DNA of 64,000 bases. It comes from Rhodanobacter thiooxydans (GTDB lineage Bacteria > Pseudomonadota > Gammaproteobacteria > Xanthomonadales > Rhodanobacteraceae). Shown here in pieces: positions 18,335 to 43,275 of this stretch. Below the pieces are notes generated by a model. That model worked only from the letters and a program-made list of their open reading frames with translations. It made no database searches and was not told the origin of the DNA. The DNA is taken from the NCBI RefSeq assembly GCF_021545845.1, contig NZ_CP088923.1:3224001-3288000 (forward strand), written 5' to 3'. Each line of letters starts with the position of its first letter. Position 1 is the stretch's first letter. Position numbers and translations under genes: made by a program.

Positions 18335-19188
18335 TCGAAGCCTCGCCGTTTGCGGCTCCGAATGCCGCGCAGATCGCCGCCGACATCGACCGCGCCTTTG
18401 CCGAGGATCTCGGCCCGGGCGACGCCACCGCGGGGCTGCTGCCGGCCGCCGCCGGCGCCCATGCCGAACTGACCTGCCGCGACGCGGCGGTGATCGCCGG
18501 CACGGCATGGTTCGACGCCTGCTTCCGCCGCCTCGACCCCGCCGTGCGGATCGACTGGCAGGTGCGTGACGGCGAGCGGGCCGCCCCCGGCGCGGTGATC
18601 TGCCGCCTGTCCGGGCATGCCCGCTCGCTGGTCACCGCCGAGCGCTCGGCGCTGAATTTCCTGCAGCTGCTGTCAGCCACTGCCACGGCGACCGCCGCGT
18701 ACGTCGCCGCGGTCGCCGGCACCCCGGTGCGCGTGCTGGACACGCGCAAGACCATTCCCGGCCTGCGCGTCGCGCAGAAGTACGCGGTGCGCTGTGGCGG
18801 GGGCCACAACCAGCGCATGGGCCTGTACGACGCGGTGCTGGTCAAGGAAAACCACATCATCGCCGCCGGCGGCATCGCCGCCGCGGTACGGGCGGCGCGC
18901 CGCCTGCACCCGGACCTGCTGCTCGAAGTCGAGGTGGAGAACCTCGACGAACTGGAGCAGGCGCTGCAGGCCGGTGTGGACCGGATCATGCTGGACAATT
19001 TCGAGCCGGCGCAGATGCACGAGGCGGTGCGGCGCACCGCCGGCCGCGTGCCGCTGGAAGCCTCCGGCAACGTCGACCTGGGCACGATCGGCGAATACGC
19101 CCGCACCGGCGTGGACTTCATTTCGGTCGGTGCGCTGACCAAGCACGTGCACGCCGTCGACCTGTCGCTGCGCCTGCAACTGGACTGA
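18331..19188 (+). CDS. nadC: Nicotinate-nucleotide pyrophosphorylase (carboxylating)
   Basis: Quinolinate phosphoribosyltransferase: quinolinate plus PRPP gives nicotinate mononucleotide, CO2 and PPi, in de novo NAD synthesis. The 285-residue protein has an N-terminal open-face sandwich and an alpha/beta barrel with DTRKTIPGLRVAQKYAVRCG, KENH and LEVEVEN, and GNVDLGTIGEYARTGVDFIS near the end. The stop codon TGA is also the first three bases of the repeat element at 19186. Confidence 0.95.
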   Translation: MIEASPFAAPNAAQIAADIDRAFAEDLGPGDATAGLLPAAAGAHAELTCRDAAVIAGTAWFDACFRRLDPAVRIDWQVRDGERAAPGAVICRLSGHARSLVTAERSALNFLQLLSATATATAAYVAAVAGTPVRVLDTRKTIPGLRVAQKYAVRCGGGHNQRMGLYDAVLVKENHIIAAGGIAAAVRAARRLHPDLLLEVEVENLDELEQALQAGVDRIMLDNFEPAQMHEAVRRTAGRVPLEASGNVDLGTIGEYARTGVDFISVGALTKHVHAVDLSLRLQLD

Positions 19189-19455
19189 GAGGTTGTGTTT
19201 TTTTCGACCTCTCAGACCGGTCACGGCGAGGGCATGGCGAAGGCATGGCGAGGGCATGGATGCCCGAGTTGAGGCAACGCAGGGAGCGGTTGCCCGATGC
19301 CCGAGTTGAGGCAACGCAGGAGCGGTTGCCCGACGGCCGGGCATGAAACAGTCACGCCAGTGACTGTTTCATGTGAGCGAGTCCGGGCGTGTACCGGACT
19401 CGCGACAGAAGAAAACCACAGGAGGTGGTTTTCTTCACGAGCTCCGAGCCGAGCT
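19186..19455 (+). repeat. Modular 3'-UTR repeat element, copy A (after nadC)
   Basis: Fills the gap 19189-19489. Starting at the nadC stop it contains hairpin TGAGAGGTTG/CGACCTCTCA with a T-rich loop (19186-19214), GGCATGGCG short repeats, two tandem 36-37-bp units (GATGCCCGAGTTGAGGCAAC and so on), an extra perfect 14-bp-arm hairpin CATGAAACAGTCAC/GTGACTGTTTCATG (19342-19373), hairpin CGAGTCCGG/CCGGACTCG, and hairpin GAAGAAAACCAC/GTGGTTTTCTTC. Copies B and C share all modules except the extra hairpin, in the same order relative to the preceding gene. No coding potential is supported. Confidence 0.9.
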
Positions 19456-19489
19456 TGCGCCCATCCGCCCGCGCCCACACACTGCAGGG

Positions 19490-19885
19490 ATGAGCGATCT
19501 TTCCAATCTGTTGCTGCTGCTGGCGCTTGTCGCCGTGGTGGGGCTGTGGCTGAAACTCAGCACCGCGCGCGAACGCGCCGTGCGCGAAGCGCGCCAGCAA
19601 TGCCAGCAACACGGCCTGCAACTGCTCGACGAAACGGTCGGCCTGCGCGCCGTGCGGCTGCGCCGGATCAACGGCTTGCGCAGGGTCGAGCGCTGCTACG
19701 GCTTCGAGGTGAGCATCGACGGCCACGACCGCGAGCCGGGCCGGCTGTGGATGATCGGCGACGCGCTCAGCAGCCTGAGCCTGCCCACCATCGAACTGCT
19801 GCCGCAGGAAGAAGCCGCGGCACGGAGCACTGCGGCCGTGTCCGGCAAGGTGGTGCCGCTGCGTCCGCGCAACCGGCTGAACTGA
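19490..19885 (+). CDS. DUF3301-family membrane-anchored protein
   Basis: A 131-residue protein: one N-terminal membrane helix (LSNLLLLLALVAVVGLWLKL), then a short cytoplasmic domain with CQQHGLQLLDETVGLRAVRL and a conserved RVERCYGFEVS strand, typical of DUF3301. Function unknown. ATG 19490 is preceded by GCAGGG; an upstream in-frame extension to 19373 lies inside the repeat element and is rejected. In xanthomonads this gene commonly lies near nadC and sspAB, as here. Confidence 0.75.
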   Translation: MSDLSNLLLLLALVAVVGLWLKLSTARERAVREARQQCQQHGLQLLDETVGLRAVRLRRINGLRRVERCYGFEVSIDGHDREPGRLWMIGDALSSLSLPTIELLPQEEAAARSTAAVSGKVVPLRPRNRLN

Positions 19886-19931
19886 GTACGAGTGAAGCCC
19901 CGCCGCGCACGTTGAGCGCGGCAGCCCGTTG

Positions 19932-20387
19932 CTACTTGACCACGCGCAGGTGCGGCGTGCTGCGTTTCGGCTTGTCGCCACCGGCATCGGCAGCACCCGG
20001 CGCCGGCGTGGGATCGTCAGGTTCAGGAGCGGGTGGCGGCGTATCGCCGCCCTCTTCCTCGGCCGGAAACATCATGCCCTGGCCGTTCTCCTGCGCATAC
20101 AGCGCCAGCACCGCCGGCACCGGAATCTGGATCGCCTGGCTGACCCCGGAAAAGCGCGCCTCGAAGCTGATCCACTCGTTGCCGAGGTCGAGGTTCGCCA
20201 CCGCGCGCATGGCCAGGTTGAGCACCACCTGGCCGTTCTTGACCACCTGCGGCGGCACCCGCACACCGGCGACGCCGGCGTCGACCAGCACGTACGGAGT
20301 CAGGTTGTTGTCGCTGATCCAGTCGTAGATCGCCCGCAGCAGGTACGGGCGGTTGGAGCTCATCGGCGCCGCTTCATTCTTGCTCAT
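19932..20387 (-). CDS. sspB: ClpXP protease specificity-enhancing factor SspB
   Basis: Adaptor that delivers ssrA-tagged peptides to ClpXP. The 151-residue protein has the dimeric substrate-binding domain (RPYLLRAIYDWISDNNLTPY at the start, then AVANLDLGNEWISFEARFSG), an acidic/proline-rich flexible linker (about 110-140) and the C-terminal ClpX-binding peptide TPHLRVVK, the SspB XB motif. The start at ATG 20387 overlaps the 3' end of sspA by 14 bases; ATG 20363 (MSSNRPY) is an alternative. A CCGCGC/GCGCGG hairpin at 19902-19920 follows the stop. Confidence 0.93.
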   Translation of the reverse strand: MSKNEAAPMSSNRPYLLRAIYDWISDNNLTPYVLVDAGVAGVRVPPQVVKNGQVVLNLAMRAVANLDLGNEWISFEARFSGVSQAIQIPVPAVLALYAQENGQGMMFPAEEEGGDTPPPAPEPDDPTPAPGAADAGGDKPKRSTPHLRVVK

Positions 20388-21012
20388 GGATTTGCCGCAT
20401 CGCCTTTTCCTGATCGGTCATGCTGCGCGCAAAACCCTGACTGTGGAACAAACGCTCGCCGTAATCGACCACCGGCTTGCCCTCACGCCCCAGTTCCACG
20501 CCCAGCCACGGCAGCCGCCAGATCACCGGAGCCACCAGGCAGTCGGCCAGGCTCATCTCCGGATTGAGGAAGAATTTCGCGGCCTTGAACAGCGGCACCG
20601 AAGCCAGCAGGTGCCCGCGCAGGCGCTTGCGCGCCGCGTCCGCGGGTCGGCCGCCGGCACGGATGATGTCCACCTCGGTCAGCCAGTCCTTTTCGATGCG
20701 CACCGCGGCCACCCGCAGGCGCGCGCGCGACTGCGGGTCGATCGGCATCAGCGGCGGGTGCGGGTAGCGCTCGTCGAGGTATTCGCAGACCACCGAGGTG
20801 TCGAACAGGGTCAGGTCGCGATCGACCAGGGTCGGCGTGCTGGCATACGGATTCAGGTCGACCAGGTCTTCCGGCGGCCGCGCCGGATCCACCAGTACCC
20901 GCTCGTAGCTGACCCCCTTGGCGGCCAGCACCAGCCGGGCGCGGTGACACTGCACGTCGTCGGCGGTGGTGTAGAGCGTCAATACGCTGCGTGAGCGGGC
21001 GCTTGGGACCAT
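20374..21012 (-). CDS. sspA: Stringent starvation protein A
   Basis: Glutathione-S-transferase-fold RNA-polymerase-associated protein for stationary-phase and stress transcription. The 212-residue protein has the thioredoxin-like N-domain (SVLTLYTTADDVQCHRARLV) with NPYASTPTLVDRD, and an alpha-helical C-domain. ATG 21012 follows GGGGAA 8 bases upstream; TTG 21018 is in frame but less likely. It forms an operon with sspB, 73 bases downstream of petC. Confidence 0.92.
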   Translation of the reverse strand: MVPSARSRSVLTLYTTADDVQCHRARLVLAAKGVSYERVLVDPARPPEDLVDLNPYASTPTLVDRDLTLFDTSVVCEYLDERYPHPPLMPIDPQSRARLRVAAVRIEKDWLTEVDIIRAGGRPADAARKRLRGHLLASVPLFKAAKFFLNPEMSLADCLVAPVIWRLPWLGVELGREGKPVVDYGERLFHSQGFARSMTDQEKAMRQIHEQE

Positions 21013-21085
21013 GCGCAATTCCCCATCGGTGAGACGACTGCGGCGGCTCGTGGCCGCCGCAGTCGGATAATGCCAACCAGGCTGC

Positions 21086-21847
21086 TCAGTGGACGTCCTT
21101 CCAGTATTCCTTCTTCAGCATGGCGGACAGGAAGGTGAAGAACGCCAGGAACAGCAGCACCCAGACGCCGTAATGATGGCGCTGCAGGGCAGCCGGTTCG
21201 GAAGCATATTCCAGGAAGGTGGTCAGGTCACGGCTGGCCTGCTGGAACTGCGCCGGGGTCAGCTTGCCTGGCTGCGACAGCACCAGTTTCTCGACCCTGG
21301 CGTCCTCGCCCGGCTTGGCCTCGGTCATCACCGCGGTCTGCAGGCCCTGCAGCTCCCACAACGGGAACGGCATCGACGCATTCGGAAACACCGTGTTGTT
21401 CCAGCCCACCGGACGGTTCGGGTCCAGGTAGAACGAGTTGAGGTAGGCGTAGACCCAGTCGGCGCCCTTGGCGCGCACTTCCAGCGAGAGATCCGGCGGA
21501 GCCTTGCCGAACCACTTGGTGGCGTCGGCCTCCGGCATGTGCGAGACCACGGTCTCACCGAACTTGGCGCCGGTGAAGTTGAGGTTCTGCATCACGTCCT
21601 GTTCGGTCAGCCCCAGGTCGCTGGCGATCCGCTCGTAACGCATGTACTTCAGCGAGTGGCAGCCAACGCAGTAATTGAAGAACAGCTTGGCGCCGCGCTG
21701 CAGCGAGGCCTGGTCCTGCACGTTGGTGCCGGCATGGGGCAGGCCGCCGCCTTCCGCCGCCTGCGCCGGCGCACCGCCGACGACCAGACCGAACGCCAAC
21801 GCCACCGGGAAGATGTACCGCTTCATTAGCAGCTGCCGCTTAGTCAT
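21086..21847 (-). CDS. petC: Ubiquinol-cytochrome c reductase, cytochrome c1 subunit
   Basis: Membrane-anchored periplasmic c-type cytochrome that passes electrons from the Rieske protein to soluble cytochrome c. A signal peptide (MKRYIFPVALAFGLVVGGAP, ending AQA) leads into heme site CVGCH; a Met axial ligand is likely in HMPEAD; a C-terminal anchor helix (WVLLFLAFFTFLSAML) is followed by KKEYWKDVH. ATG 21847 overlaps the petB stop by eight bases; ATG 21826 would start directly at the signal peptide and is equally plausible. Third gene of petABC. Confidence 0.95.
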   Translation of the reverse strand: MTKRQLLMKRYIFPVALAFGLVVGGAPAQAAEGGGLPHAGTNVQDQASLQRGAKLFFNYCVGCHSLKYMRYERIASDLGLTEQDVMQNLNFTGAKFGETVVSHMPEADATKWFGKAPPDLSLEVRAKGADWVYAYLNSFYLDPNRPVGWNNTVFPNASMPFPLWELQGLQTAVMTEAKPGEDARVEKLVLSQPGKLTPAQFQQASRDLTTFLEYASEPAALQRHHYGVWVLLFLAFFTFLSAMLKKEYWKDVH

Positions 21848-23141
21848 GCGTCGTCACCCGTTCCGGAACCGGCTTGGTCTTTTCCCAGCCGTAGTATGTG
21901 TAGACCCAAAGGAATACGAAGAACCCGAAGTAGATCAGCGTCATCACGCGGCCGAACAGGTTCTCCCAGAACGTCACGTCGACATCGCCGAACCACGCCG
22001 GGATCACTTCGGCGGTAACGCCCGCGCCGACCGCGCCCAGCATGATGTACGACACCACGAACAGCCCCAGCGCCACCTTGAAGCCGGTGCCGCGGTAGCG
22101 GACCGACTTGACCTTGCCGCGGTCGACCCAGGGCAGCAGAAACAGCACCGCGATCGCACCGAACATCGCGATCACGCCCCACACGGCCGAGCCGAGGAAG
22201 GACGGAATCATGCGCACGATCGCGTAGAACGGGGTGAAATACCACACCGGCTTGATGTGCGACGGCGTCGCCAGGTTGTTCGCCGGGATGAAGTTGTCGT
22301 GCTCGAGGAACCAGCCGCCGAAGGTCGGCGCGAAGAAGATGATGAACGCGGCGATCAGCAGGAACGCGCCCACGCCGACCAGGTCCTTCACCGTGTAGTA
22401 CGGGTGGAACGGGATGCCGTCGGTCGGCTTCAACGCATCCCAGCGGTTGCCCTTGGGACCCTTCTTGATCTCCACGCCGTCGGGGTTGTTCGAACCCACC
22501 TCGTGCAGCGCGGCCAGGTGCAGCACCACCAGCAGCAGCAGCACGATCGGCAGCGCGACCACGTGCAGCGCGAAGAAGCGGTTGAGCGTGGCGTCGGCCG
22601 GCAGGAAGTCGCCCATGATCCACTCGACCAGGTCGCCGCCGATGTAGGGAATGGTGCCGAACAGCGAGATGATCACCTTGGCGCCCCAGAACGACATGTT
22701 GCCCCATGGCAGCACGTAGCCCATGAACGCCTCGGCCATCAGCACCAGGAAGATCAGCATGCCGAGCAGCCACACCAGCTCGCGCGGCTTCTTGTACGAG
22801 CCGTACATGATGCCGCGGAACATGTGCAGGAACACCACCACGAAGAACAGCGAAGCGCCGGTGGAGTGCATGTAGCGGATCAGCCAGCCCCACTCCACGT
22901 CACGCATGATGTACTCGACCGAGGCGAAGGCTCCCGCCGCGCTCGGGTTGTAGTTCATGGTGAGGAAGATGCCGGTGACGATCTGGTTGACCAGCACCAG
23001 CAGCGCCAGCGAACCGAAGTAGTACCAGAGGTTGAAGTTCTTCGGCGCGTAGTACTCGGTCATGTGCTTGCGGTACATCGGCATCATGCCGGGTGCACGC
23101 TCGGTGACCCAGTCGCCGATGCTCGTGAATACGTTGGCCAT
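21840..23141 (-). CDS. petB: Ubiquinol-cytochrome c reductase, cytochrome b subunit
   Basis: Membrane core of complex III carrying hemes bL and bH and both quinone sites. The 433-residue protein has eight membrane helices. Heme ligands are H92, H106, H193 and H208. The second pair is 15 residues apart, as in b6-type sequences, rather than the 14 of mitochondrial or Rhodobacter cytochrome b. The Qo-site motif normally PEWY reads PVWY (298-301). The start overlaps the petA stop by one base (TAATG). Confidence 0.96.
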   Translation of the reverse strand: MANVFTSIGDWVTERAPGMMPMYRKHMTEYYAPKNFNLWYYFGSLALLVLVNQIVTGIFLTMNYNPSAAGAFASVEYIMRDVEWGWLIRYMHSTGASLFFVVVFLHMFRGIMYGSYKKPRELVWLLGMLIFLVLMAEAFMGYVLPWGNMSFWGAKVIISLFGTIPYIGGDLVEWIMGDFLPADATLNRFFALHVVALPIVLLLLVVLHLAALHEVGSNNPDGVEIKKGPKGNRWDALKPTDGIPFHPYYTVKDLVGVGAFLLIAAFIIFFAPTFGGWFLEHDNFIPANNLATPSHIKPVWYFTPFYAIVRMIPSFLGSAVWGVIAMFGAIAVLFLLPWVDRGKVKSVRYRGTGFKVALGLFVVSYIMLGAVGAGVTAEVIPAWFGDVDVTFWENLFGRVMTLIYFGFFVFLWVYTYYGWEKTKPVPERVTTHD

Positions 23142-23746
23142 TAGCCAGCCTCCTTCGGATCCACGCCAATCTGGATGGTGCTGTCGTCGATGAAGTGGTA
23201 CGGCGGCACCGGCAGGTTCTTCGGCGCCGGCACGCCGGCGTAGACGCGGCCGGCCAGGTCATAGCGCGATTTGTGGCAGGGGCAGTAGAAACCGCCCTTC
23301 CAGTCCGGGTCGAACGGCTCGGGCTTGATCTCCGGCACGAAGTCGGGCACGCAGCCCAGGTGCGTGCAGATGCCGATGACCACCAGCCATTCCGGCTTGA
23401 TCGAGCGCGCTTCGTTCTGCGCGTACTTCGGCTGCTGGTCGGCGGAGCCGCCGTCGGACTTGGGGTCCACCAGGCGAGAGTCGACCATCGGCAGCGTGGC
23501 GAGCTGCGCCTTGGTGCGGTTGAGCACGAACACCGGCAGGCTGCGCCACGACACGGTGAGCATCTGCCCCGCCTCGATCTTGGCCAGCGACTGGGTGACC
23601 GGAGCACCAGCGGCCTTGGCGCGCGCGCTGGGTTCCCACGACTTGATGAAGGGCACAGCCGCCGCGACGATTCCGATGCCACCAACCACCGAGGTGGTTG
23701 CTGTCAGAAAACGACGGCGGCCATGATCGACGACTTCGTTCGCCAT
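23141..23746 (-). CDS. petA: Ubiquinol-cytochrome c reductase, Rieske iron-sulfur subunit
   Basis: A 201-residue Rieske protein. The twin-arginine signal GRRRFLTATTS and one membrane helix (about 16-36) are followed by the [2Fe-2S] ligands C127, H129, C155 and H158 in CTHLGC and CPCHKS, with the bridging disulfide C132/C157. ATG 23746 follows CGGAGAG; the longer open frame to 23917 lacks support. First gene of petABC; its promoter must lie in 23747-23908, shared with the divergent protease gene. Confidence 0.95.
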   Translation of the reverse strand: MANEVVDHGRRRFLTATTSVVGGIGIVAAAVPFIKSWEPSARAKAAGAPVTQSLAKIEAGQMLTVSWRSLPVFVLNRTKAQLATLPMVDSRLVDPKSDGGSADQQPKYAQNEARSIKPEWLVVIGICTHLGCVPDFVPEIKPEPFDPDWKGGFYCPCHKSRYDLAGRVYAGVPAPKNLPVPPYHFIDDSTIQIGVDPKEAG

Positions 23747-23908
23747 CAGGCTCTCCGGTACTTGCAATGCCATGCCAGGTGGGGTTTGGGACCCCGCAAA
23801 AAATCGCGTTAGTGTAGCGTCAGGCCCCGCCCCGTACAATAAACCGCATCGCGGCGAAGTCCAGCCGCCGCAACACTCGACACGATTGCCGGGACCTCTC
23901 CTTTCGAC

Positions 23909-25081
23909 ATGAAACATGCCGCCGGCACGCTCCTCTTCATCGCGCGCTTCGCCATCCTCGGACTGGCCATGGCTTTCGTGGTCGGCCTGTTCTGGCCCGG
24001 CAGCGGCGGGCGCCTGCGCGAACGTTTCGGCCTAAGGCCGGCGACACCGTCCGCCACGCCGGCCTCCCCGGGCCGCGGCCCGGTCTCCTACGCCGACGCG
24101 GTGGCGGCCGCGGCGCCCTCGGTGGTCAACATCTACGCCAACCGGATCGTCACCGAGCAGGCCGTGCGGATGTACGACAACCCGGTGCTGCAGCAACTGT
24201 TCGGGGGCCAGCCCACCACCTTCCAGCATCGCGAACAGACGCTCGGCTCCGGCGTGATCGTCAGCGCGCAGGGCCAGGGCTACGTATTGACCAACAACCA
24301 TGTGATCGCACGCGCCGCCGACATCCAGGTGCTGCTGTACGACGGCCGCATCGCCAAGGCCAGCCTGGTCGGCGCCGACGAGGAATCGGACCTGGCGGTG
24401 CTGAAGATCGACGCCAGCAACCTGCCGGTGATCCACATCGCCGGACAGCCGCTGCGGCCCGGCGACGTGGTGCTGGCGATCGGCAACCCGCTCGGCCTCA
24501 ACCAGACCGTCACCATGGGCATCGTCAGCGCGATCGGCCGCCAACTGAACAGTTCCAGCGCCGAGGATTTCATCCAGACCGACGCGGCCATCAACCTGGG
24601 CAACTCCGGCGGCGCGCTGGTCAACGCCGAGGGCGAACTGGTCGGCATCAACACCCTGCTGATCGGCAAGGCCGCCGGTGCCGAAGGCATCGGCTTCGCC
24701 ATCCCGGTCACTACCGCCAAGAAGGTGCTGGACCAGATCATCGCCACCGGCCACGTGGTGCGCGGCTGGCTCGGCGCCGACTACGCGTTCGTGCCGGTGG
24801 CCGCCAACGGCGGCCTGCCCGGGGCGGCGCGCGGCGCCCTGGTCACCATGGCCTATCCCGGCAGCCCGGCCGCGCTGGCCGGCATCCGCCCGCGCGACAT
24901 CCTGCTGCGCATCGGTAGCGACGACATCCTCGACCCGACCGACCTGCGCCGGCGCGAGGCGGCGCTCAAGCCGGGCAGCACGGTGACGATCTCCGGCCTG
25001 CGCAACGGCAGCCCGTTCCATCTCGAAGTCACGCCGGTTCAGCGCCCCGCCTTGAGCGCCGGCAGCATGCCGGACAGCTGA
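23909..25081 (+). CDS. degS: Membrane-anchored serine protease, DegS/AlgW type
   Basis: A 390-residue trypsin-like HtrA protease. One N-terminal membrane helix (about 8-29) and no cleavable signal, a protease domain with H131, D161 and S233 (GNSGGAL), and a single PDZ domain (about 280-375). One PDZ plus a membrane anchor is the DegS/AlgW layout; these sense misfolded porins and cleave the anti-sigma factor RseA/MucA. The gene is isolated from any rseA/rpoE locus here. The TACAAT hexamer at 23835-23840 could be its -10. The start at ATG 23909 has a poor ribosome-binding site. Confidence 0.88.
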   Translation: MKHAAGTLLFIARFAILGLAMAFVVGLFWPGSGGRLRERFGLRPATPSATPASPGRGPVSYADAVAAAAPSVVNIYANRIVTEQAVRMYDNPVLQQLFGGQPTTFQHREQTLGSGVIVSAQGQGYVLTNNHVIARAADIQVLLYDGRIAKASLVGADEESDLAVLKIDASNLPVIHIAGQPLRPGDVVLAIGNPLGLNQTVTMGIVSAIGRQLNSSSAEDFIQTDAAINLGNSGGALVNAEGELVGINTLLIGKAAGAEGIGFAIPVTTAKKVLDQIIATGHVVRGWLGADYAFVPVAANGGLPGAARGALVTMAYPGSPAALAGIRPRDILLRIGSDDILDPTDLRRREAALKPGSTVTISGLRNGSPFHLEVTPVQRPALSAGSMPDS

Positions 25082-25084
25082 TCT

Positions 25085-26197: not shown

Positions 26198-26421
26198 GGG
26201 CGCAGTGTGCCGCCGGCGGACGCCAGCGCCAAGTGCGAACCGGCGATTCCGTGCGCCATGCAGCGTTCCGGGCGCCTGCAGGCACCGGCCACACCGCGCG
26301 CCTGCTCCGCAAGTGATTGATCCGCCATGCCGAATTGCTGGCGGCGGCGCCACCAGGAGGGTAGACTGCGCGGTTCACCGGATGGTGCGTCCGGCCTCAC
26401 GAACCACGGTACCCCACGCCC

Positions 26422-27858: not shown

Positions 27859-27893
27859 GACGCCCACAGGAACACGCATTCGACACGTATCCC

Positions 27894-28916
27894 ATGACCA
27901 ACGGCCTCAACCAGCGCGATTTCACCCTCGACCCCGAAGACAACGCCCGGCTCGCCAACCTGTGCGGGGCGTTCGACGAGCACCTGCGCCAGGTGGAGCT
28001 GCGCCTGGGCGTGGAGATCAACCACCGCGGCAGCATCTTCCAGGTGATCGGCGAGGAGGCGCCCGTGCGCGCCGCCGAGAAGGTGCTGCGCGCGCTGTAC
28101 GCCAGCACCGGGAGCGAGATGCTGACCGGTGCGCAGATCAACCTGCAGCTGGCCGAATCCGGCATCGATGCGATCACCGAGGCGGCCGTCGAAGGCGCCC
28201 AGGAGATGGTGATCAAGGTCAAGCGCGGGGTGATCAAGGGCCGCGGTCCGAACCAGGCGCGCTACCTGCACGCGATCGCCAGCCACGACATCAACTTCGG
28301 CGTGGGCCCGGCCGGCACGGGCAAGACCTACCTGGCGGTGGCCAGCGCGGTCGAGGCGCTGGAGGCGAACCGGGTACAGCGACTGATCCTGGTGCGCCCG
28401 GCGGTCGAGGCCGGCGAGAAGCTCGGCTTCCTGCCTGGCGACCTCAGCCAGAAGGTCGACCCCTATCTGCGCCCGCTGTACGACGCGCTGTACGAGATGC
28501 TCGGCTTCGAGAAGGTGGCCAAGCTGATCGAGCGCAACGTGATCGAGATCGCCCCGCTGGCCTACATGCGCGGGCGCACCCTGAACGATTCGTACGTGAT
28601 CCTCGACGAGGCACAGAACACCACCGTCGAGCAGATGAAGATGTTCCTCACCCGCATCGGCTTCGGCACGGTGGCGGTGATCACCGGCGACGTCACCCAG
28701 GTCGACCTGCCGCGCAGTACCCGTTCGGGCCTGCGCCAGGCGGTCGAGGTGCTGCGCGGGGTCACCGGCATCAGCTTCACCTTCTTCACCTCGCGCGACG
28801 TGGTGCGCCACCCGCTGGTGGCGAAGATCGTGCGCGCCTACGAGGCGTTCGAGGAAGAAGCCGGGATTCGGGATTCGGGATTGGAGATTCGGGAAAAGCC
28901 GAAACCGGCAACCTGA
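27894..28916 (+). CDS. phoH: PhoH-like ATPase (YbeZ)
   Basis: A 340-residue P-loop protein of the PhoH/YbeZ family, a partner of the YbeY RNase and thought to act in RNA or ribosome quality control. An N-terminal KH-like region (30-70) precedes Walker A GPAGTGKT (138-145) and Walker B YVILDEAQNTT. The last 18 residues, GIRDSGLEIREKPKPAT and the residue before, are encoded by a (GGGATTC)n repeat arm, so the native C-terminus has been replaced by repeat-derived sequence. Confidence 0.92.
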   Translation: MTNGLNQRDFTLDPEDNARLANLCGAFDEHLRQVELRLGVEINHRGSIFQVIGEEAPVRAAEKVLRALYASTGSEMLTGAQINLQLAESGIDAITEAAVEGAQEMVIKVKRGVIKGRGPNQARYLHAIASHDINFGVGPAGTGKTYLAVASAVEALEANRVQRLILVRPAVEAGEKLGFLPGDLSQKVDPYLRPLYDALYEMLGFEKVAKLIERNVIEIAPLAYMRGRTLNDSYVILDEAQNTTVEQMKMFLTRIGFGTVAVITGDVTQVDLPRSTRSGLRQAVEVLRGVTGISFTFFTSRDVVRHPLVAKIVRAYEAFEEEAGIRDSGLEIREKPKPAT

Positions 28917-28992
28917 TCTTCATCGCAGCCACGGATACCCGACATGCCGCACACCGCTCTTCCGAATCCCGAATCCCGAATCCCGAATCCCG
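28862..28992. repeat. (GGGATTC)n inverted-repeat element spanning the phoH/ybeY junction
   Basis: Left arm (28862-28893): GGGATTC units, then GGGAAAAGCCG. Right arm (28961-28992): TTCCGAATCCCGAATCCC and so on, preceded by CCGCTC. The arms are complementary and about 67 bases apart, so the junction can form a long cruciform or mRNA hairpin. The phoH stop and the ybeY start both lie in the loop. The copy at 56569 has the same inner flanks (AAAAGCCG and CCGCTCTT). Confidence 0.85.
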
Positions 28993-29441
28993 TTCTCGTC
29001 CACCTCGGCTACGCCGTGCCGCGCGCCGGCCTGCCCGCGCCGGCCAGCTTCCGCCGCTGGGTCGAGGCGGCGCTGCGCGGGGCGAAGCGGCGCAAAGGCG
29101 CCGAGCTGGCGATCCGCATCGTCGATGCCCACGAAGGCCGCGCGCTCAACCGCGATTACCGCGGCAAGGACTACGCCACCAACGTGCTGTCGTTCCCCGC
29201 CGAGCTGCCGCCAGGCGTGGCGCTGCCGCTGATCGGCGACCTGGCGATCTGCGCCCCGGTAGTGCTGCGCGAGGCCGCCGAGCAGGGCAAATCGCCGCGC
29301 GACCATTGGGCCCACCTCACCGTCCACGGCGTGCTGCACCTGCTCGGCTACGACCACACCGAGGAGGCCGAAGCCGAAGCGATGGAAGCGCTGGAAACCC
29401 GCGTCCTGGCCGGCCTCGGCATCGCCGACCCCTACGCCTGA
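28944..29441 (+). CDS. ybeY: Endoribonuclease YbeY
   Basis: A 165-residue metal-dependent single-strand RNase for 16S rRNA 3' processing and ribosome quality control. The zinc-binding [11 protein letters not shown] motif is near residue 130. The first 16 residues, [16 protein letters not shown], come from the right arm of the repeat element; homology begins at [13 protein letters not shown]. No other start codon exists between the repeat and the conserved domain, so the start codon itself (ATG 28944) lies in the repeat loop. Confidence 0.93.
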
Positions 29442-33417: not shown

Positions 33418-33780
33418 TCACCAGGTGCGCACGTCGACCACGCTGATGGTGAAACTGCTCATGCCGGACTGGTAGCGGAACAGCCGGCCCAGGTCGAAGT
33501 GCACGGTTTCGCCCGGGGCAATGTTGGAGGTGCCGGCCGGCCACGCCTGCTTGCTCTGGATGACGGAACCGGCATCGTCCTTGATGTCGATGCGGATCTG
33601 CGCGGCCGAGGCCGCGGCGCAGTTGTTGACCAGGTCGCCGCGCAGGCTCATCCGTGTCGACGTTCCGGTGTTGTTGACCCCGGGCTTGAAGTCCTTGACG
33701 GCGAAGTCCTTCGGAGTGCAGTTGGCCTGGGCGGCCAGCGGGGCGAACAGGAGTACCGCGGAGAGGAGGAGCGTCTTCAT
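33418..33780 (-). CDS. Small secreted protein, FxLyD-like, paralogue 1
   Basis: A 120-residue exported protein: signal peptide MKTLLLSAVLLFAPLAAQA, mature chain starting NCTPKDF. The mature part has LRGDLVNNC, QIRIDIKDDAGSVIQSK and IAPGETVHFDL, the pattern of FxLyD-type beta-sandwich domains (NN, then iI-D--G, then PGE). Two cysteines (C21 and the NNC cysteine) may form a disulfide. It is about 80 percent identical to the gene at 33991 on the opposite strand, with a four-residue insertion (NNTGTST region). Function unknown. Confidence 0.75.
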   Translation of the reverse strand: MKTLLLSAVLLFAPLAAQANCTPKDFAVKDFKPGVNNTGTSTRMSLRGDLVNNCAAASAAQIRIDIKDDAGSVIQSKQAWPAGTSNIAPGETVHFDLGRLFRYQSGMSSFTISVVDVRTW

Positions 33781-33990: not shown

Positions 33991-34341
33991 ATGAAGGCCC
34001 TCGTTGTTTCCGCCGTGTTGCTGTTCGCCCCGCTGGCTGCCCAGGCCGCCTGCGCACCTGGCGATTTCGCCATCAAGGATTTCAAGCCCGGCGTCGCGGC
34101 ATCGCGCCTCAGCCTGCGCGGCGATCTGGTCAACAACTGTGCCGCGGCCTCGGCCGCGCAGATCCGCATCGAGGTCAAGGACGCCGGCGGCAAGGTGCTG
34201 CAGAGCAAGCAGGGCTGGCCGGCCGGCACCGCCAACATCGCCCCGGGCGAAACCGTGCACTTCGACCTGGGCCGGCTGTTCCGCTACCAGGCGGACATGG
34301 ACAGCTACACCGTCAGCGTGGTCGACGTGCGCACCTGGTGA
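33991..34341 (+). CDS. Small secreted protein, FxLyD-like, paralogue 2
   Basis: A 116-residue exported protein: MKALVVSAVLLFAPLAAQA, then ACAPGDFAIKDFKPG. It is transcribed away from its paralogue at 33418-33780 across a 210-base gap, so the pair looks like an inverted duplication. The C-terminal SVVDVRTW is identical in both. The gene ends at a strong terminator. The role is unknown; periplasmic or secreted location is inferred from the signal peptide. Confidence 0.78.
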   Translation: MKALVVSAVLLFAPLAAQAACAPGDFAIKDFKPGVAASRLSLRGDLVNNCAAASAAQIRIEVKDAGGKVLQSKQGWPAGTANIAPGETVHFDLGRLFRYQADMDSYTVSVVDVRTW

Positions 34342-34361
34342 TACTGCCGGCAGCGTGACGC

Positions 34362-34387: not shown

Positions 34388-34426
34388 GGTATCCGCCGCT
34401 GCGCAGCGCTCCGCGCCAGCGGGCCT

Positions 34427-34726: not shown

Positions 34727-34736
34727 GGGGCAATCC

Positions 34737-35915: not shown

Positions 35916-35932
35916 GGTCCAGTATCCGCGGG

Positions 35933-37024
35933 TCAGGCGCCGCTGGCGCCGGTATGGGGTCGGCGGGCCAGCGCCAGCAGGCGTGCCGCCATGTGGTCGA
36001 TCGGCTGCATCTCGGCGGCGGCATCCAACTTCCAGGCGGCGCCGGGCATGCCCCACACCACCGAACTTGGCTCGTCCTGCACCAGGGTGGCGGCGCCGGC
36101 CTGGCGCAACTCCAGCAAACCGCGTGCGCCGTCGTCGCCCATGCCGGTGAGCAGCGTGGCGATGGTGGCGGCGCCGGCGCTGGCCGCCAGCGAGCGGAAC
36201 AGCACATCGACGCTGGGGCGGTGCCGGTTCACCGGCGGGCCGTCGTGCAGCCGGCACACGTACTTGGCGCCGTCCCACATCACCAGCAGGTGGTGGCTGC
36301 CGGGCGCGATGTAGGCATGGCCGGACTGGACCGGCTGGCCGTCCTGCGCCTCGCACACGCGCATCGCCGAGCAGCGGTCCATGCGCGCGGCGAACGGGCC
36401 GCTGAAGGCGGCGGGTATGTGCTGGGTCACCAGGATCGGCGGCGCGTCAGGCGGCATCGCCTCCAGCACCACACGCACCGCTTCGGTGCCGCCGGTGGAG
36501 GCGCCGATCGCGATGATCGGGCTGCCGCCGCGCGTGCCCGTGGTCTGCACGCGCGGCAGCACCGCATCGGCCGACAACCGCGGCGCCACATCCAGCTTGC
36601 GCACCGTGGTGCGCGCGCGCGGCCTGGCCAGCGCCGCCAGCTTGACCTTGGCGCAGATCTCCTGCGCGCCGTCGCCGAAGCTGGACGCGAGGTCACTGCT
36701 CGGCTTGGCGAAGAAGTCCACCGCGCCCAGCTCCAGCGCACGCAGCGTCACGTCGGCCCCTTCCGTGGTCAGCGACGACACCATCACCACCGGCATCGGT
36801 CGCAGCCGCATCAGGTTTTCCAGGAAAGTCAGCCCGTCCATGCGCGGCATCTCGACGTCCAGGGTCAGCACGTCGGGGTTGAGTTGCTTGATCTTCTCGC
36901 GGGCGATCAGTGGGTCCGCCGCCGTGCCGACCACCTCGATGCCCGGATCGCAGGCGAGCATGGCCGACATCAGCTTGCGCACCAATGCGGAATCGTCGAC
37001 TACCAGAACACGCACTCTATCCAT
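35933..37024 (-). CDS. cheB: Chemotaxis protein-glutamate methylesterase/deamidase CheB
   Basis: Demethylates and deamidates MCPs. The 363-residue protein has an N-terminal receiver (D10, D11, phosphoacceptor D56 in [12 protein letters not shown]) and a C-terminal methylesterase with catalytic Ser in GASTGGTEA, His in [10 protein letters not shown] and Asp in LTGMGDDGA. It is downstream of cheD on the same strand (77-base gap). Confidence 0.95.
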
Positions 37025-37101
37025 TGCTCACCTTGCCATGCAGCCACGGCCCCGTCGCCCGCGACGGTCGCCCGGTCGATCGCCACGCCGGAACCACGGC
37101 G

Positions 37102-37752
37102 CTAGAACAGCTCGACCTCACCCTTTATCGGATCGTTTGCCAAACGCTTGAGGTAGCCGCGCTCGTCGGCCACCAGCGCCACGTCGTCGCTGCGGCGCAA
37201 CTGGCGCACGCGGACCCGGCCGCTGTGCGGGAAGAACTGCACCTGGCGCGGGTAGACGTCGCCCAGGTCCTCCGCCGCCAGCTGCAGCCTTTCGGCCTCG
37301 ATGTAGCGGTGCACGAAGTCGATGTTGCGCTGGCCCACGTCGCTCAGCTGGGCCAGCACGCGGCCACCGCCGAACACCTTCACGCGCAGGTTCGCGCGCT
37401 GGCCGCCCGCCTTCAGGACGGCGTTGATCAGCTGCTCCATCGCGTCGCTGCCATAGCGCGCCGCGCGCCCGTTGGCCGACGACCAGCTGTCGCGCTCGCC
37501 GGTGGGCTCGGGCAGCATGAAGTGGTTCATGCCGCCGACGCCGCGTTCCGCGTCGTGGATGCAGGCCGACACGCACGAACCGAGCACGGTGCTGACCAGC
37601 TCGTCGCTGCCGCTCACGTAGAACTCGCCCGGCAGCACCCGCACCACCATGCGGCCCTGGGTCGGGTCCCAGAACCGGCGCAGGTGCTCGAAGCCGGGCA
37701 TGGCCTCGGGCAGCGTGGCGCTACGGCGCTCGACCGTCACTACCGGCGTCAT
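37102..37752 (-). CDS. cheD: Chemoreceptor glutamine deamidase CheD
   Basis: Deamidates specific glutamines in MCPs. The 216-residue protein has catalytic C60 in VLGSCVSACIHD and H77 in GGMNHFMLP, spaced 17 apart as in Thermotoga CheD (C27/H44). The C-terminus extends to KGEVELF. The start (ATG 37752) overlaps the cheR stop as ATGA. CheD usually pairs with CheC; no cheC is in this window. Confidence 0.94.
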   Translation of the reverse strand: MTPVVTVERRSATLPEAMPGFEHLRRFWDPTQGRMVVRVLPGEFYVSGSDELVSTVLGSCVSACIHDAERGVGGMNHFMLPEPTGERDSWSSANGRAARYGSDAMEQLINAVLKAGGQRANLRVKVFGGGRVLAQLSDVGQRNIDFVHRYIEAERLQLAAEDLGDVYPRQVQFFPHSGRVRVRQLRRSDDVALVADERGYLKRLANDPIKGEVELF

Positions 37753-38633
37753 CCGCGCTTCCGGTAGACGGTGCGGCCGATCAGCTCGAAATCGTCGTTG
37801 ATGCCGTGCAGCGACTCGGAATGGCCGAGGAACAGGTAGCCGCCCGCCGGCAGCAGCGCGGCGTAGCGGCGAAACAGCTGCTGCTTGGTTGGCTGGTCGA
37901 AGTAGATCACCACGTTGCGGCAGAAGATCGCGTCGAACGGACCGCGCATGGGCCACTCGTGCAACAGGTTCAGCGGCTGCACGCTCACCAGTTCGCGCAG
38001 GCGCGGATGCACGCAGGCGAAGCCTTCATATTCGCCGGCGCCGCGCAGCATCCAGCGGCGCCGGCGTTCGTCGCTGACGCCGGCCAGCCGTTCCAGCGGG
38101 TAGACGCCGTTGCGCGCGGTTTCCAGCACCTGCGGCGACAGGTCGGTGGCGAGGATCTTCGCATCCAGGCCCGCCCCGCCATGGCGCTCCAGCGCCTCGG
38201 CCAGCACCATCGCCAGCGCGTACGGCTCCTCGCCGGTAGAACAGCCGGCGGACCAGATCCGCAGGCGATCGCCGCTGCGGCGCTTCTGCTGCAGCCATTG
38301 CGGCAGCAATTCGTCGACCAGCAGGTCGTAATGATGCTGCTCGCGGAAGAACGAGGTCACGTTGGTGCTGATCACGCTGGCAAGGTTGTCCAGCTCGCTG
38401 TCCGGGTCGCGCCGCAACAGCTCGCAATAGGCGCCGAAGTGGTGCAGGCCCAGCGCGCGCAGCCGCCGCGCCAGGCGCCCCTGCACCAGCTGGCGCTTGT
38501 GCTCGCCCAGCGAGATGCCGCAATACTCGTGGACGAACTCGCGCAGGAAGCGGAACTCGGCATCGCCGAGCAGCACCGCGCCGCCGTCCGCCGGCCCCGG
38601 ATCGCCTCCGATCATGCCGGCGACGGCGCCCAT
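37749..38633 (-). CDS. cheR: Chemotaxis protein methyltransferase CheR
   Basis: Methylates MCP glutamates using S-adenosylmethionine. The 294-residue protein has the N-terminal helical domain and the SAM-binding SAGCSTGEEPYALAM, plus NVVIYFD and YLFLGHSESL. It starts two bases after the stop of the upstream MCP gene and overlaps cheD by four bases. Confidence 0.95.
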   Translation of the reverse strand: MGAVAGMIGGDPGPADGGAVLLGDAEFRFLREFVHEYCGISLGEHKRQLVQGRLARRLRALGLHHFGAYCELLRRDPDSELDNLASVISTNVTSFFREQHHYDLLVDELLPQWLQQKRRSGDRLRIWSAGCSTGEEPYALAMVLAEALERHGGAGLDAKILATDLSPQVLETARNGVYPLERLAGVSDERRRRWMLRGAGEYEGFACVHPRLRELVSVQPLNLLHEWPMRGPFDAIFCRNVVIYFDQPTKQQLFRRYAALLPAGGYLFLGHSESLHGINDDFELIGRTVYRKRG

Positions 38634-38635
38634 GC

Positions 38636-40360
38636 TCAGAATTCCTTCCAGGCGCCAGCGTCCGCCGTCTCGGCGGCGGACGCCATCCGCGGCGGCGTCT
38701 TGCGCACGGCGGCGAACACCGCCTCTGTGGCCCGGCTCACGTCCTTCGCGCGATCCTGCGGCGCGGCCTCCTTCGCTGCGCCATCGCCGGCCAGGTGGAA
38801 GAAGCCGACCTGCTCGGACAGCTCGCCGGCCTGCTCCTGCATGGCGCGGGCCGCCGCCGAGGCCTCCTCGACCAGCGCGGCGTTCTGCTGGGTCATCTCG
38901 TCCATCTGCATCACCGCGTTGTTGACCTGGTCGATGCCGGCCGACTGCTCCTGGCTGGCCGCGGCGATCTCGGCCACGATGTCGGTGACCTTCTTCACGC
39001 TCTCGACGATCTCGGCCAGCGCCTTGCCGGACTGGTTGACCAGCTCCGAGCCGCTCTTCACCTTCTCCTCGCTCTCGGCGATCAGGCCCTTGATCTCCTT
39101 CGCCGCGCCGGCGCTGCGCTGCGCCAGGCTGCGCACCTCGCTGGCCACCACCGCGAAGCCGCGGCCCTGCTCGCCGGCACGCGCCGCTTCCACCGCCGCG
39201 TTCAGCGCCAGCAGGTTGGTCTGGAACGCGATCTCCTGGATCAGCCCCACGATGTCGCCGATCTTGCGGCTGGAGGCGTCGATCTCGCCCATCGCGGCAA
39301 TCGCCTTGCCGGCCACCTCGCCGCCGCGCTCGGCCTGCTCGCGCGCGCCGCGGGCGAGCTGGTTGGCGTGGCTGGCGTTCTCCGCGTTCTGCTTCACGGT
39401 GGAGGTCATCTCCTCCATCGACGAGGCGGTTTCCTCCAGGCTGGAGGCCTGCTCCTGCGTGCGCTGACTGAGGTCGTCGTTGCCGCGCGCGATCTGCTGC
39501 GCCGCGCTGCTGACCGCATCGGAGCCGTGGCGCACCTCGCCCACGATCGCGCCGAGGCGCTCGTCCATGACGCGGAAGGCCTCCAGCAGCCGGCCCAGCT
39601 CATCGTGCCGCCCGACCCTGATCGCATGGCCCAGCTGGCCTTCGGAAATGGCATGCGCCACCTTCACCACATGCGCCAGCGTGCCGCTGATCGAGCGCAC
39701 CAGCAAGGTCGACACCAGCAGTGCGAGCAGCAGGCCGCCAATAAGCGCGGCGAGCACCAGCAGCCGCACCACCTTGTAGCGGCCGACCTGGGTCTGGTAC
39801 GTCTGCTTCACCTCGTCGCTCTGCGCCTGCGTGAGCTTGTCGAGCGTGTCCACGCGCAGCATCAGCTGCGGGCGCACCTGCATTTCCAGCAGGTCGCTGG
39901 TGCCTTCATCGGCCTGGCGCAGGGCATCGTAGATGTCCTTCAGGCCGCTCTCGTACTCCGCGTCGGTGGCGCGGTAGGCCTTGTACTTCGCCGCGATCTG
40001 CGGGCTCATCGGCAGCGCCGACAGCTGCTTGTCGATCCCGGCGACCTCCTGCTGGAGCTTCTCGGACTCCGCAACCTTCTGCCTCACCTGGTCAGGCTTC
40101 TTGATCGCCCCCGCCGCCTCGCCGAGCACGACGAAGTTCATCAGCGACCTGGCGCGCAAGGTGGCCATCAGCTGCGCCGGCACCATACCCTCCTCGTAGC
40201 TGTGGCGCAGGCCCTCGTTCTGCCATTGCATCATGCCGAGGCCGACCGCCGCGCCCGCCGCGAGCATCAGCCCGAGCAGCGCGAACGTGCCGATCAGGCG
40301 CGCCCTGACGGACAGCGTCGGCAGCCTGGTAAAACGTGCCATGAATTTCTTGATGTTCAT
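38636..40360 (-). CDS. Methyl-accepting chemotaxis protein, 4HB-type sensor
   Basis: A 574-residue classical MCP: membrane helix (about 21-42), a four-helix-bundle periplasmic domain, a second helix (about 195-215), HAMP, and MA domain with the hairpin tip [20 protein letters not shown]. The C-terminal AWKEF is a WxxF pentapeptide, the tether for CheR/CheB, which are encoded immediately downstream. The ligand is unknown. It is second-to-last of the receptors in this operon. Confidence 0.93.
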
Positions 40361-40378
40361 CGTGATTCCCGGATCGGA

Positions 40379-40885
40379 TCAGGCGGCAACTTCGACATCC
40401 CGGACGTCCGTCAGCGCGGCGTCCAGGGTTTCAACGTCTTCCGGACGCATCAGCTTCTCCACGTCCAGCAGCATCACCATGCGTTCGGCATGGGTGGCCA
40501 GGCCCTTCAGGTAGCGGGTGTCGACGATCGCGCCCATGTCGGGCACCGGCCGGATCGCCGCCATGTCGATGTCCACCACGTCGGACACCGCATCCACCAC
40601 GATGCCGAACAGGCGCTCGGCCACCGCCACGACGATCATCACCGTGCTGTCGCCGTAGCTCTCACGCTCGAGCCCGAAGCGCAGGCGCAGGTCCATCACC
40701 GGCACGATCGCGCCGCGCAGGTTCAACACGCCGAGCACATAGGCGGGCGTCTGCGGAATGCGGGTGACCCGCGTCCAGCCGCGGATCTCGCGTACCGTCA
40801 GGATGTCGACGCCGTACTCCTCGCCAGCCAGGCTGAAGGTGAGCTGCTGCACGGTGGGCGCCGTGTCCGCGTTGTTTTCATGCAT
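40379..40885 (-). CDS. cheW: Chemotaxis coupling protein CheW
   Basis: A 168-residue CheW that links MCPs to CheA: QQLTFSLAGEEYGVDILTVREI at the start, VLGVLNLRGAIVPVMDLR in the middle. ATG 40885 is preceded by AAGG; the longer frame to 40984 lacks support. The 399-base gap upstream (40886-41284) holds a GGCAGC-type short tandem repeat (about 41001-41040) and repeat element copy B. Confidence 0.94.
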   Translation of the reverse strand: MHENNADTAPTVQQLTFSLAGEEYGVDILTVREIRGWTRVTRIPQTPAYVLGVLNLRGAIVPVMDLRLRFGLERESYGDSTVMIVVAVAERLFGIVVDAVSDVVDIDMAAIRPVPDMGAIVDTRYLKGLATHAERMVMLLDVEKLMRPEDVETLDAALTDVRDVEVAA

Positions 40886-41051
40886 GGATCGTCTACCTTG
40901 TGAGGGGTGTCTGCAGGCACCCGGCCTCGATGCCTGTATCGGCCTTGCCAGGGAGGACTTGAGTACAGCGCAGTCGCCGGGCAAAACCGCTACTGCCGGC
41001 CTCGCGGCAGCAGCGGCAGCAGCGGCAACAGCGGCAGCGGAAAACGGCTAC

Positions 41052-41287
41052 GCTCAGAGCTTGTGAAGAAAACCACATCCTGTGGTTTTCCTCAGTCGCG
41101 AGTCCGGTACACGCCCGGACTCGCTCACATGCGTTGCCTCAACTCGGGCATCGGGCAACCGCTCCCTGCGTTGCCTCAACTCGGGCATCGGGCAACTGCT
41201 CCTGCGTTGCCTCAACTCGGGCATCCATGCCCTCGACATGCCCTCGCCGTGGCCGGCCTGAGCGGTTGAAAAAATCACAACCTCTCA
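41052..41287 (-). repeat. Modular 3'-UTR repeat element, copy B (after an mcp gene)
   Basis: Same modules as copy A, reading from the stop codon of the gene at 41285 on the minus strand: hairpin TGAGAGGTTG/CAACCGCTCA with an A/T-rich loop (41260-41287), short CATGCCCTCG repeats, three tandem units (41131-41167, 41168-41203 and a third starting 41204), hairpin CGAGTCCGG/CCGGACTCG and hairpin GAAGAAAACCAC/GTGGTTTTC. The first three bases TGA (41287-41285) are the mcp stop codon. Not coding. Confidence 0.9.
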
Positions 41288-42991
41288 GAACTCGGTCCAG
41301 CCGCCAGCCGCCGCGGTCGACCGGGTCGGTTCGGCCGTGCGAGTCGCCGGCTTGCGCGGCAACGCCACCACGCGCGCCGAGGCCGACGCCGCCTGCGCGG
41401 GCTTTGCCGGCGCGCCGTCCAGCCGGAAGAACCTCATCTGCCGCTGCAGTTGGCCGGCCTGCTCCTGCATCGCCCGCGCCGCCGCCGCGGCTTCCTCCAC
41501 CAGCGCCGCGTTCTGCTGGGTCACTTCGTCCATCTGCATCACCGCGCGGTTCACCTGGTCGATGCCGGCCGACTGCTCGTGGCTGGCTGCCGCGATCTCC
41601 GCCACGATGTCGGTGACCTTCCTCACGCTGTCCACGATGTCCGCCAGCGCCGCACCGGACTGCTCCACCAGCGCGCTGCCGGCCTGCACCCGATCCACGC
41701 TTTCGCCGATCAGCACCTTGATTTCCTTCGCCGCCGCTGCGCTGCGCTGCGACAGGCTGCGCACCTCGCTGGCCACCACCGCGAAGCCGCGGCCCTGCTC
41801 GCCGGCGCGTGCCGCCTCCACCGCTGCGTTCAACGAGAGCAGGTTGGTCTGGAACGCGATCTCGTCGATCAGACCGACGATATCGGCGATCCGGCGGCTC
41901 GATGCGCTGATCTCGCCCATCGCCGCCACTGCCTGCGCCACCACCTGGCCGCCGCGCTCGGCCTGTTCGCGCGCGCCGTTCGCCAACTGATTGGCGTGGC
42001 TGGCGTTCTCCGCGTTCTGCCTCACGGTAGAGGTCATTTCCTCCATCGACGAGGCGGTTTCCTCCAGGCTGGAGGCCTGTTCCTGCGTGCGCTGGCTCAG
42101 GTCGTCATTGCCCTTGGCGATCTGCTGCGCGGCACTGCTCACTGCCTGCGAGCCATGTTGCACCTGGCCCACCACCTCGATCAGTTTCAGGTGCAGCCGT
42201 TGCATCGCGTGCATCATGCTGCCCGGCGCCAGCTTCACGCCCTCGGCGCCTTCCACCGACAGATTGCCGTCAGCCATGCGGCCCACCATCTTCACCGCGA
42301 ATGTCGGCTCGCCGCCGATGCTGCGACGAATGCTTTGCATGGTCAACCACACCACCAGCACCACCAGCAGCGCCATCAACGCCACCCTGGCCATGCGCAC
42401 TTTCATCATGTGCACGAATTGCGCATCGACCTCGTCGAGGTAGGCGCCGGCGCCAAAGTGCATGCCCCAAGGCTTGTACAACGCCGAGTAGGTGATCTTG
42501 CCCACGATCTTCTTGCTGGTGGGCTTCGGCCAGTCGTAATAGGTGACGCCGCTGCCGTCCCGAGCGTCCACTTCGCGCATCAGCTGGAAGATCGGCTTGC
42601 CATTCCGGTCCACCATGTCGCGTACGCTCTTGCCGAGCCTGTCCAGCATTATCGGATGCTCGGCCAGCGTGTAGTCGTCGCCGAAGGCGAACACGTAGCC
42701 TGCACCATCGCCCCACCGCATGTCGTGGATCTGCGCCAATGCGTGCTTCTGCGCCTCGGCCCGACTCAATTCGCCCCTGGCGGCACGTTCATCCCAGGCC
42801 GTGGCGATGGAGATCGCCGATTCCACGTTGTTTTGCAACGCCCCCTGCACGCCACGCACCAACAGATCGCGGCCCTGGAAGGTGTTCATCACAGTGAGCG
42901 CGACCAAGCCGACCAGCACCACGGCCACCACCAGCATCACCTTGATATTGAGACTCAAGCGATGAAAAAAGTCGTGCACATTGGAAAACAT
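41285..42991 (-). CDS. Methyl-accepting chemotaxis protein, Cache-type sensor
   Basis: A 568-residue MCP: membrane helix (about 14-35), an sCache_2-like periplasmic domain ([20 protein letters not shown], then VTYYDWPKP), a second helix (about 195-215), a weak HAMP, and an MA domain with hairpin tip [20 protein letters not shown]. The C-terminal GWTEF is a CheR/CheB-tethering WxxF pentapeptide. ATG 42991 follows GGGAGGGAGGC. Its stop codon is part of repeat copy B. Confidence 0.92.
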
Positions 42992-43101
42992 GCCTCCCTC
43001 CCGTTGGAGTATGCGGACCCCATGGCCTCGATTGATTTGATACCCTCCTTCACGTCGATGACGGCTCCCTGGCTGCTTGGGCACAGACCGGCCGACTCCT
43101 G

Positions 43102-43275
43102 CGCTCAGGGCTTGTGAAGAAAACCACTTCCTGTGGTTTTCTTCCGTCGCGAGTCCGGTACACGCCCGGACTCGCTCACATGCGTTGCCTCAACTCGGGC
43201 ATCCATGCCCTCGACATGCCCTCGCCATGCCCTCGCCGTGGCCGGCCTGAGAGGTTGAAAAATCACGACCTCTCA
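43102..43275 (-). repeat. Modular 3'-UTR repeat element, copy C (after cheA)
   Basis: Shortest copy: hairpin TGAGAGGTCG/CAACCTCTCA with an A/T-rich loop (43248-43275), three CATGCCCTCG repeats, a single 36-bp-type unit (43181-43203), hairpin CGAGTCCGG/CCGGACTCG and hairpin GAAGAAAACCAC/GTGGTTTTCTTC (43116-43144). The TGA at 43275-43273 is the cheA stop codon. The remaining gap 42992-43101 shows nothing recognisable. Confidence 0.9.

Follow-up and report, generated by a model that had tools for sequence, protein, structure and literature searches.

A modular hairpin element found mainly at stop codons in Rhodanobacter and its relatives is probably a non-autonomous mobile element

We describe a modular element made of hairpins, three copies of which are located in a 64,000-nucleotide stretch of the Rhodanobacter thiooxydans genome (contig NZ_CP088923.1, positions 3,224,001 to 3,288,000), further called the window and numbered from its first letter. 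In most copies the first TGA of the element is exactly the stop codon of the preceding gene. We consider it probable, though well short of certain, that this is a non-autonomous mobile element, of about 140-300 bp, found in the Rhodanobacter family and resembling miniature inverted-repeat transposable elements (MITEs), whose bias towards stop codons arises mostly from its target motif together with purging of harmful insertions. This reading is built on the observed position of the copies, on empty sites in a relative, on TGA copies at both flanks, on a target preference and on covariation within the hairpins; the steps that we infer are transposition by a transposase in trans and a bias produced mostly by purging.

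Under this reading the element would insert at CTGA, preferably at CTGAGC, in one orientation, and TGA would be left on both sides. Where the target CTGA is a sense stop codon, the stop would be restored at once and the protein would remain intact, while insertions inside genes or between tightly packed genes would be lost by selection, and the survivors would lie mostly at stops. The movement itself would depend on a transposase acting in trans, and selection would preserve the five hairpins, acting either on the single-stranded DNA used by the mobiliser or on the RNA of the 3' untranslated region (3' UTR). Such a system would be a natural case in which a preferred target and flanking TGA copies make a mobile element harmless at the ends of dozens of genes in several genera. 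It allows the 'choice' of a site to be split into target motif and later selection, and nature already supplies matched genes for comparison, one carrying a structured 3' UTR immediately at its stop codon and the other lacking it.

In the home genome (G000, a 3.99-Mb contig, assigned to Rhodanobacter by the relatives of its cheA) at least 42 dispersed copies were found, far more than chance would produce. This count was obtained by merging 69 BLAST matches by eye into 41 places, to which a recheck added one, and it is a lower bound, as 40 of 104 first-look candidates were scored. A looser pattern of the left hairpin gave 29 matches and 1 new place in the same genome, and four further left-end matches with one mismatch were inspected, none of which was an element. 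The analysis of position covered the 41 copies with a left end; 1565493 and 1894723, which lack it, and right-end fragments were left out. In 35 of the 41 copies the first TGA coincided exactly with the sense stop of a called gene. Of the remaining six, 546581 lies 11 bp past a stop; the others are 659850, 1738259 (which reads TGC), 3087693 and a tandem pair of elements, 3563466 and 3563717. Copy 2230211, whose right end is cut off, is the 41st and stands outside the test of 40 copies and its P values; none of these 40 lies within a called gene. In 13 relatives from 4 genera, 23 of 29 distinct loci were at a stop (58 matches were reduced to 30 loci and then to 29, L258 being the same as L269). 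The pattern used to find them demanded TGAG, so that other left ends were invisible to it, and left the reading frame free; the two sets overlap by one, L262 being the site of copy 147241. The bias which the earlier note had seen in three copies thus holds genome-wide and in relatives, and the fixed orientation to the upstream gene was borne out as well. The latter follows from the target, which is not palindromic (CTGAG, not CTCAG).

Comparison with a complete relative (G197, 94% identity at cheA) revealed the state of these sites without the element. This genome has 13 element matches, four of them with E <1e-19. At 17 of its sites the comparison reached the end of the upstream gene, and 15 of them had CTGA at the same place and no element, one TAG and one TAA; for the other 23 of the 40 sites the stretches of G197 compared gave no upstream match that could be used (83087 matched downstream only), and they stand outside the 17. 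A clean junction reads GGC-TGA-cccggg when empty and GGC-TGA-[element]-TGA-cccggg when filled. Empty sites in G197 end in GGAC-TGA for nadC and in GAGTTC-TGA for the chemoreceptor gene of the window. Of 56 cheA loci found, 29 were examined at the gene end (28 with TGA, 1 with TAG), and none of them had the element; G197 has none there either, and the cheA copy is therefore a gain. Since 15 of the 17 empty sites end in CTGA without the element, the stop belongs to the gene, and the possibility that the element supplies it was rejected. A stop codon belonging to the gene without any element sequence had been named in the earlier note as an outcome contrary to its proposal; this outcome was indeed obtained, yet it favours insertion over a stop-supplying element. 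Together with TGA on both sides of filled sites, an arrangement that an intrinsic 3' TGA would also produce, it supports the suggested insertion that recreates the stop codon.

Flanks of the insertions define the target. C preceded TGA in 31 of 33 upstream flanks, and G followed it in 26 of 32 downstream flanks, with C next in 25 of 32 (716981 and 2745119, with damaged right ends, are included), so the preferred target is CTGA|GC. The element's own right CTCTGA also seems to serve as a target, as suggested by the tandem pair 3563466/3563717 and by locus L273, where an element-like right end lies just 5' of the left end. In 1.24 Mb of G197, CTGAGC occurred 573 times in coding DNA (76%), 110 times at sense stops and 70 times in intergenic DNA; outside coding DNA 61% of the sites were stops, and in convergent gaps 81% (46 at a stop, 11 inner). 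The next called gene was convergent for 17 and co-directional for 17 of the 34 stop copies, and convergent for 140 of 384 background CTGA stops; among the 17 'convergent' copies three have an insertion sequence (IS) in between, and 897184 and 2235537 have the called neighbour more than 1.4 kb away. At co-directional stop sites the next gene was never within 20 bp of the element (0/17), in comparison with 60 of 244 background pairs (P 0.008). Because CTGAGC outside coding DNA is mostly at stops and harmful insertions would be purged, motif and purging seem to explain most of the stop bias, with a smaller excess left over.

Several observations weigh against insertion with later purging as the full account. 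The background comes not from the home genome but from G197, of which 1.24 Mb was annotated with our own gene caller, and a surplus at stops remains over it: the expected stop share, weighted by the targets used (21/5/6), is 0.515 (0.535 without the two damaged rows), and 34 of 40 copies are at stops (P 9e-6; P 0.001 against 0.61). The 23 of 29 loci in relatives exceed 0.515 as well (P 0.002). All 17 convergent-gap copies are at a stop (12 with the neighbour within 500 bp), against an expectation of 0.71-0.81 (P 0.003-0.076). The site of copy 147241, cleanly empty in G197, carries the element in relative G039 (L262), with upstream flanks 95% identical over 498 bp, and by cheA identity to the home genome G197 (94%) is closer than G039 (90%). 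G197 has lost this site precisely or exchanged the region, and some of the other 'empty' sites may be precise losses or exchanges too; our confidence is weaker because this site is shared with G039. The flanking TGA copies look the same as an element ending in its own TGA: to the left of 83087 and L265 stands TTGA and to their right CTGA, whereas 3178920 is flanked by GTGA at either end. No partner transposase was found whose ends match, and no other kind of element occurred among the left-end matches examined.

The surplus at stops, the convergent-gap copies and the lack of copies in called genes despite the 76% of CTGAGC sites that are coding would also agree with stops being actively sought, either by the mobiliser or by base pairing of the element's internal CTCAG (3' arm of hairpin 1) with the target CTGAG. 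Recognition would then depend on the sense strand, for example through the termination of transcription or translation. In hairpin 1 the outer pairs, CTGAG/CTCAG, are nearly constant across 4 genera and the inner ones show changes in both partners, but the constancy of the outer pairs is partly imposed by the search pattern for relatives, which demanded TGAG and CTCAG. Beyond CTGAGC no strong sequence signal was noticed in the 21 bases upstream and 25 bases downstream that were examined, CTGAGC is itself rich in stops, closely spaced co-directional pairs are avoided as under selection, and 6 of 41 copies are off stops. Active seeking is in our opinion unlikely on balance, and its specific form, an element homing to sense stop codons through the pairing of hairpin 1 CTCAG with CTGAG, we hold to be distinctly improbable; if true, a homing element would spread harmlessly to the host and turn ordinary gene ends into structured 3' UTRs. 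A different explanation is that the element was selected as a 3'-UTR RNA, its hairpins modulating termination, mRNA decay or ribosome release, and that insertions survive by helping the gene. Conserved pairing, described below, and an excess of G-U over A-C cells (41 vs 13), which hints at folding of the sense strand, agree with this, but the G-U count is biased, as the structure was drawn on one sense strand. REPs (repetitive extragenic palindromes) of E. coli close to stops are said to affect translation (PMC12306157), and an effect in the 3' UTR could plausibly take this form. On the other hand, the three window genes are unrelated, a close relative is without most of the compared copies, hairpin 3 is lost in 5 of 39, and no terminator-like site is present around copies B and C of the window. 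Selection for an RNA function therefore seems to us rather unlikely as the primary explanation.

The remaining alternative concerns the mobiliser and is compatible with insertion followed by purging. IS5-family elements follow the target rule TNA, and the element may be a MITE with a DDE-type mobiliser, moved by an IS5-family transposase, for instance that of an IS of 1,216 bp which encodes a 376-aa transposase (DUF4096 and DDE_Tnp_1) in the home genome. All 4 copies found (G000:C1:933402, 3473394, 3700812 and 3823460; L045, L062, L064, L065) are inserted at an element's right-hand TGA and flanked by TGA at either end, and the ends GAGGGTGT and GAGGTTGT agree at 7 of 8 bases. In 45 genomes of the genus searched, however, this IS was present in the home genome only, with one broken relative elsewhere, while the element is widespread; G164, with 18 element left-end matches, has no such IS. 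It also looks younger, as no more than 4 of its 1,216 bases differ between copies and the elements have a median nearest-neighbour identity of 97.2% (0 of 39 reach 99%), and the N of TNA would be expected to vary. As a general mobiliser the IS is disfavoured, and the IS5 explanation as a whole we rate as possible but doubtful; the IS may simply have a target in common with the element, which would offer it a harmless place to insert. Y1 transposases of the kind that accompany REPs (RAYTs) were considered too. PF01797 was matched 7 times in the home genome, with 3 of the matches located in reading frames 254-576 aa long. In G164 the one match is below threshold and interrupted by two stops, and G018, G126, G155 and G173 have element matches and no Y1 match. 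The distribution of Y1 transposases does not follow the element across the genus, and RAYT as the mobiliser is disfavoured.

The simplest copies, of about 157 bp, consist of five hairpins whose order is constant and whose sequences differ from one another. As in MITEs there are terminal inverted repeats: the short ends GAGGTTGTGA and GAGCTTGTGA, read from the copies, have one mismatch in 10, and TGA stands outside each of them; the element as a whole runs GAGGTTGTGA...TCACAAGCTC. In larger copies the space between hairpins 1 and 3 also contains 1-3 units, each of 36-37 bp, and short GGGCATGGCGA units. Judged by motif in 39 copies, hairpin 3 is ATGAAACAG in 30, CGCGGATC in 4 and absent in 5, and some copies (L270, L274, G000:C1:364581) bear in the loop of hairpin 4 an extra module CAGCCGCAGGCTGGCCC... 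with a GCATGCCATGGATGGCATGC palindrome. With 0-3 units and hairpin 3 in two versions or none, evolution by module gain and loss, as the earlier note had proposed, is borne out. A piece of tandem units without element ends was also noticed at 61183-61238. The fold was examined by covariation in 21 intact, unit-free copies chosen from 4 genera. Pairing was kept in 96.7% of cells, both partners had changed in 21 of 54 pairs (86 such cells vs 25 in shuffles), and sliding the partners by one column reduced pairing to about 40%. Fold z-scores against shuffles were -7.9 for copy A and -6.4 for copy C.

The element length ranged from 138 to 299 bp in 39 measured copies, and being dispersed, small and, judging from the list of open reading frames in the window only, without coding capacity, it agrees with MITEs in these respects also. 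At E 0.001 it was matched in 50 of 197 genomes of the Rhodanobacter family, many of them over single hairpins only. Copy C had no match in the plasmid or in the phage collection, and carriage by plasmids or phages was rejected on this basis. Integron attC sites were considered as another candidate and set aside.

A near precedent for the property of the element exists, contrary to the earlier note, which knew of no named element of this kind. REPs with a GTAG tag are reported to provide the terminal TAG as a stop codon to neighbouring open reading frames (PMC3733652). GTAG REPs and REPINs with their RAYT are, like our element, palindromic and dispersed, and the short tag at the base of the hairpin also acts as a stop (TAG there, TGA here). 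They differ in the tag, as neither GTAG nor CGTC, by which REPs are recognised, is found at the hairpin base of our element, where CTGA(G) stands, and in the string of five hairpins of about 157 bp or more; the element-rich relative G164 is, unlike RAYT systems, without an intact Y1 transposase. Bacterial MITEs (ERIC/RU-1, RUP, Correia, YPAL/RU-2; reviewed in PMC2229807) share small size, lack of protein, short inverted ends, a structured transcript and, if the flanking TGA copies arise in this way, target duplication; most have TA at the ends, whereas our element targets CTGA(GC) and mainly lands at stops. The IS5-type IS of the home genome likewise occupies CTGAG and is bordered by TGA at either end, but encodes a transposase, has ends that are not identical and was found, in all 4 copies, inside elements. 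BOX elements of pneumococcus are modular, with a variable number of middle units, and resemble our element in this architecture. In open-licence PMC literature, among the titles and abstract starts of the matches listed, no stop-codon repeat in Rhodanobacter or its family was mentioned.

The three window copies follow nadC (PF02749/PF01729), a methyl-accepting chemotaxis protein (MCP) gene (PF00015) and cheA (PF01627/PF01584). As claimed before, each begins C-TGAGAGG with TGA as the in-frame stop of its gene, and the unit numbers of 2, 3 and 1 in copies A, B and C were correct. Copy A (19186..19449, plus strand) has two units and all five hairpins; its right end had been placed at 19455, about 6 bp too far. 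Its left TGA (19186..19188, plus strand) is the stop of nadC (18331-19188), and the right-hand TGA position (19445-19447) reads CGA. The following parts of copy A, all on the plus strand, were delimited: hairpin 1 (19185..19215, CTGAGAGGTTG / CGACCTCTCAG), with the stop codon within its 5' arm, the two tandem 36-37-bp units (19259..19332, GATGCCCGAGTTGAGGCAACGCAGG(G)AGCGGTTGCCC), hairpin 3 (19343..19372, ATGAAACAGTCAC / GTGACTGTTTCAT), hairpin 4 (19377..19403, GCGAGTCCGG / CCGGACTCGC) and hairpin 5 (19408..19436, GAAGAAAACCAC / GTGGTTTTCTTC), which adjoins the right end. The hairpin described before as extra in copy A is present, but represents the common state: 34 of 39 copies have a third hairpin, and B and C are among the 5 without it. 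Copy B (41051..41287, minus strand) follows the MCP gene (open reading frame 41285-43084), has 3 units, and its left TGA at 41285..41287 (minus strand) is the stop of that gene; the right TGA is at 41054-41056 (minus strand). Copy C (43102..43275, minus strand) has 1 unit, its left TGA at 43273..43275 (minus strand) being the stop of cheA (43273-45288) and its right TGA lying at 43105-43107 (minus strand). A scan around copies B and C for an intrinsic terminator (a GC stem followed by a T run) found none, and this function was rejected for the two copies; an Rfam scan of the window at gathering scores detected one tRNA elsewhere and no curated RNA family at the element. Copies B and C, 2 kb apart (41047-41288 and 43099-43276), share an identical junction at the missing hairpin 3. 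A local copying event may link the two; nearest-neighbour identities support this for B and not for C.

Other repeats were noticed in the window as well. About seven head-to-tail copies of the 15-bp unit GAAAGCTCTTGCTCT are located at 61739-61843, and inverted runs of GGGATTCGGGATTCGGG at 28853-29001 and 56563-56669. A 231-bp inverted repeat (33418-33648 and 34111-34341), 89% complementary and with a second pair nested inside, is possibly an invertible or duplicated coding segment. A 35-bp inverted repeat (CTAAGAGCCTGTTTATGACCTCC...) at 53346-53380 and 53585-53619, with arms 94% complementary and about 204 bp apart, is a candidate for another MITE-like element.

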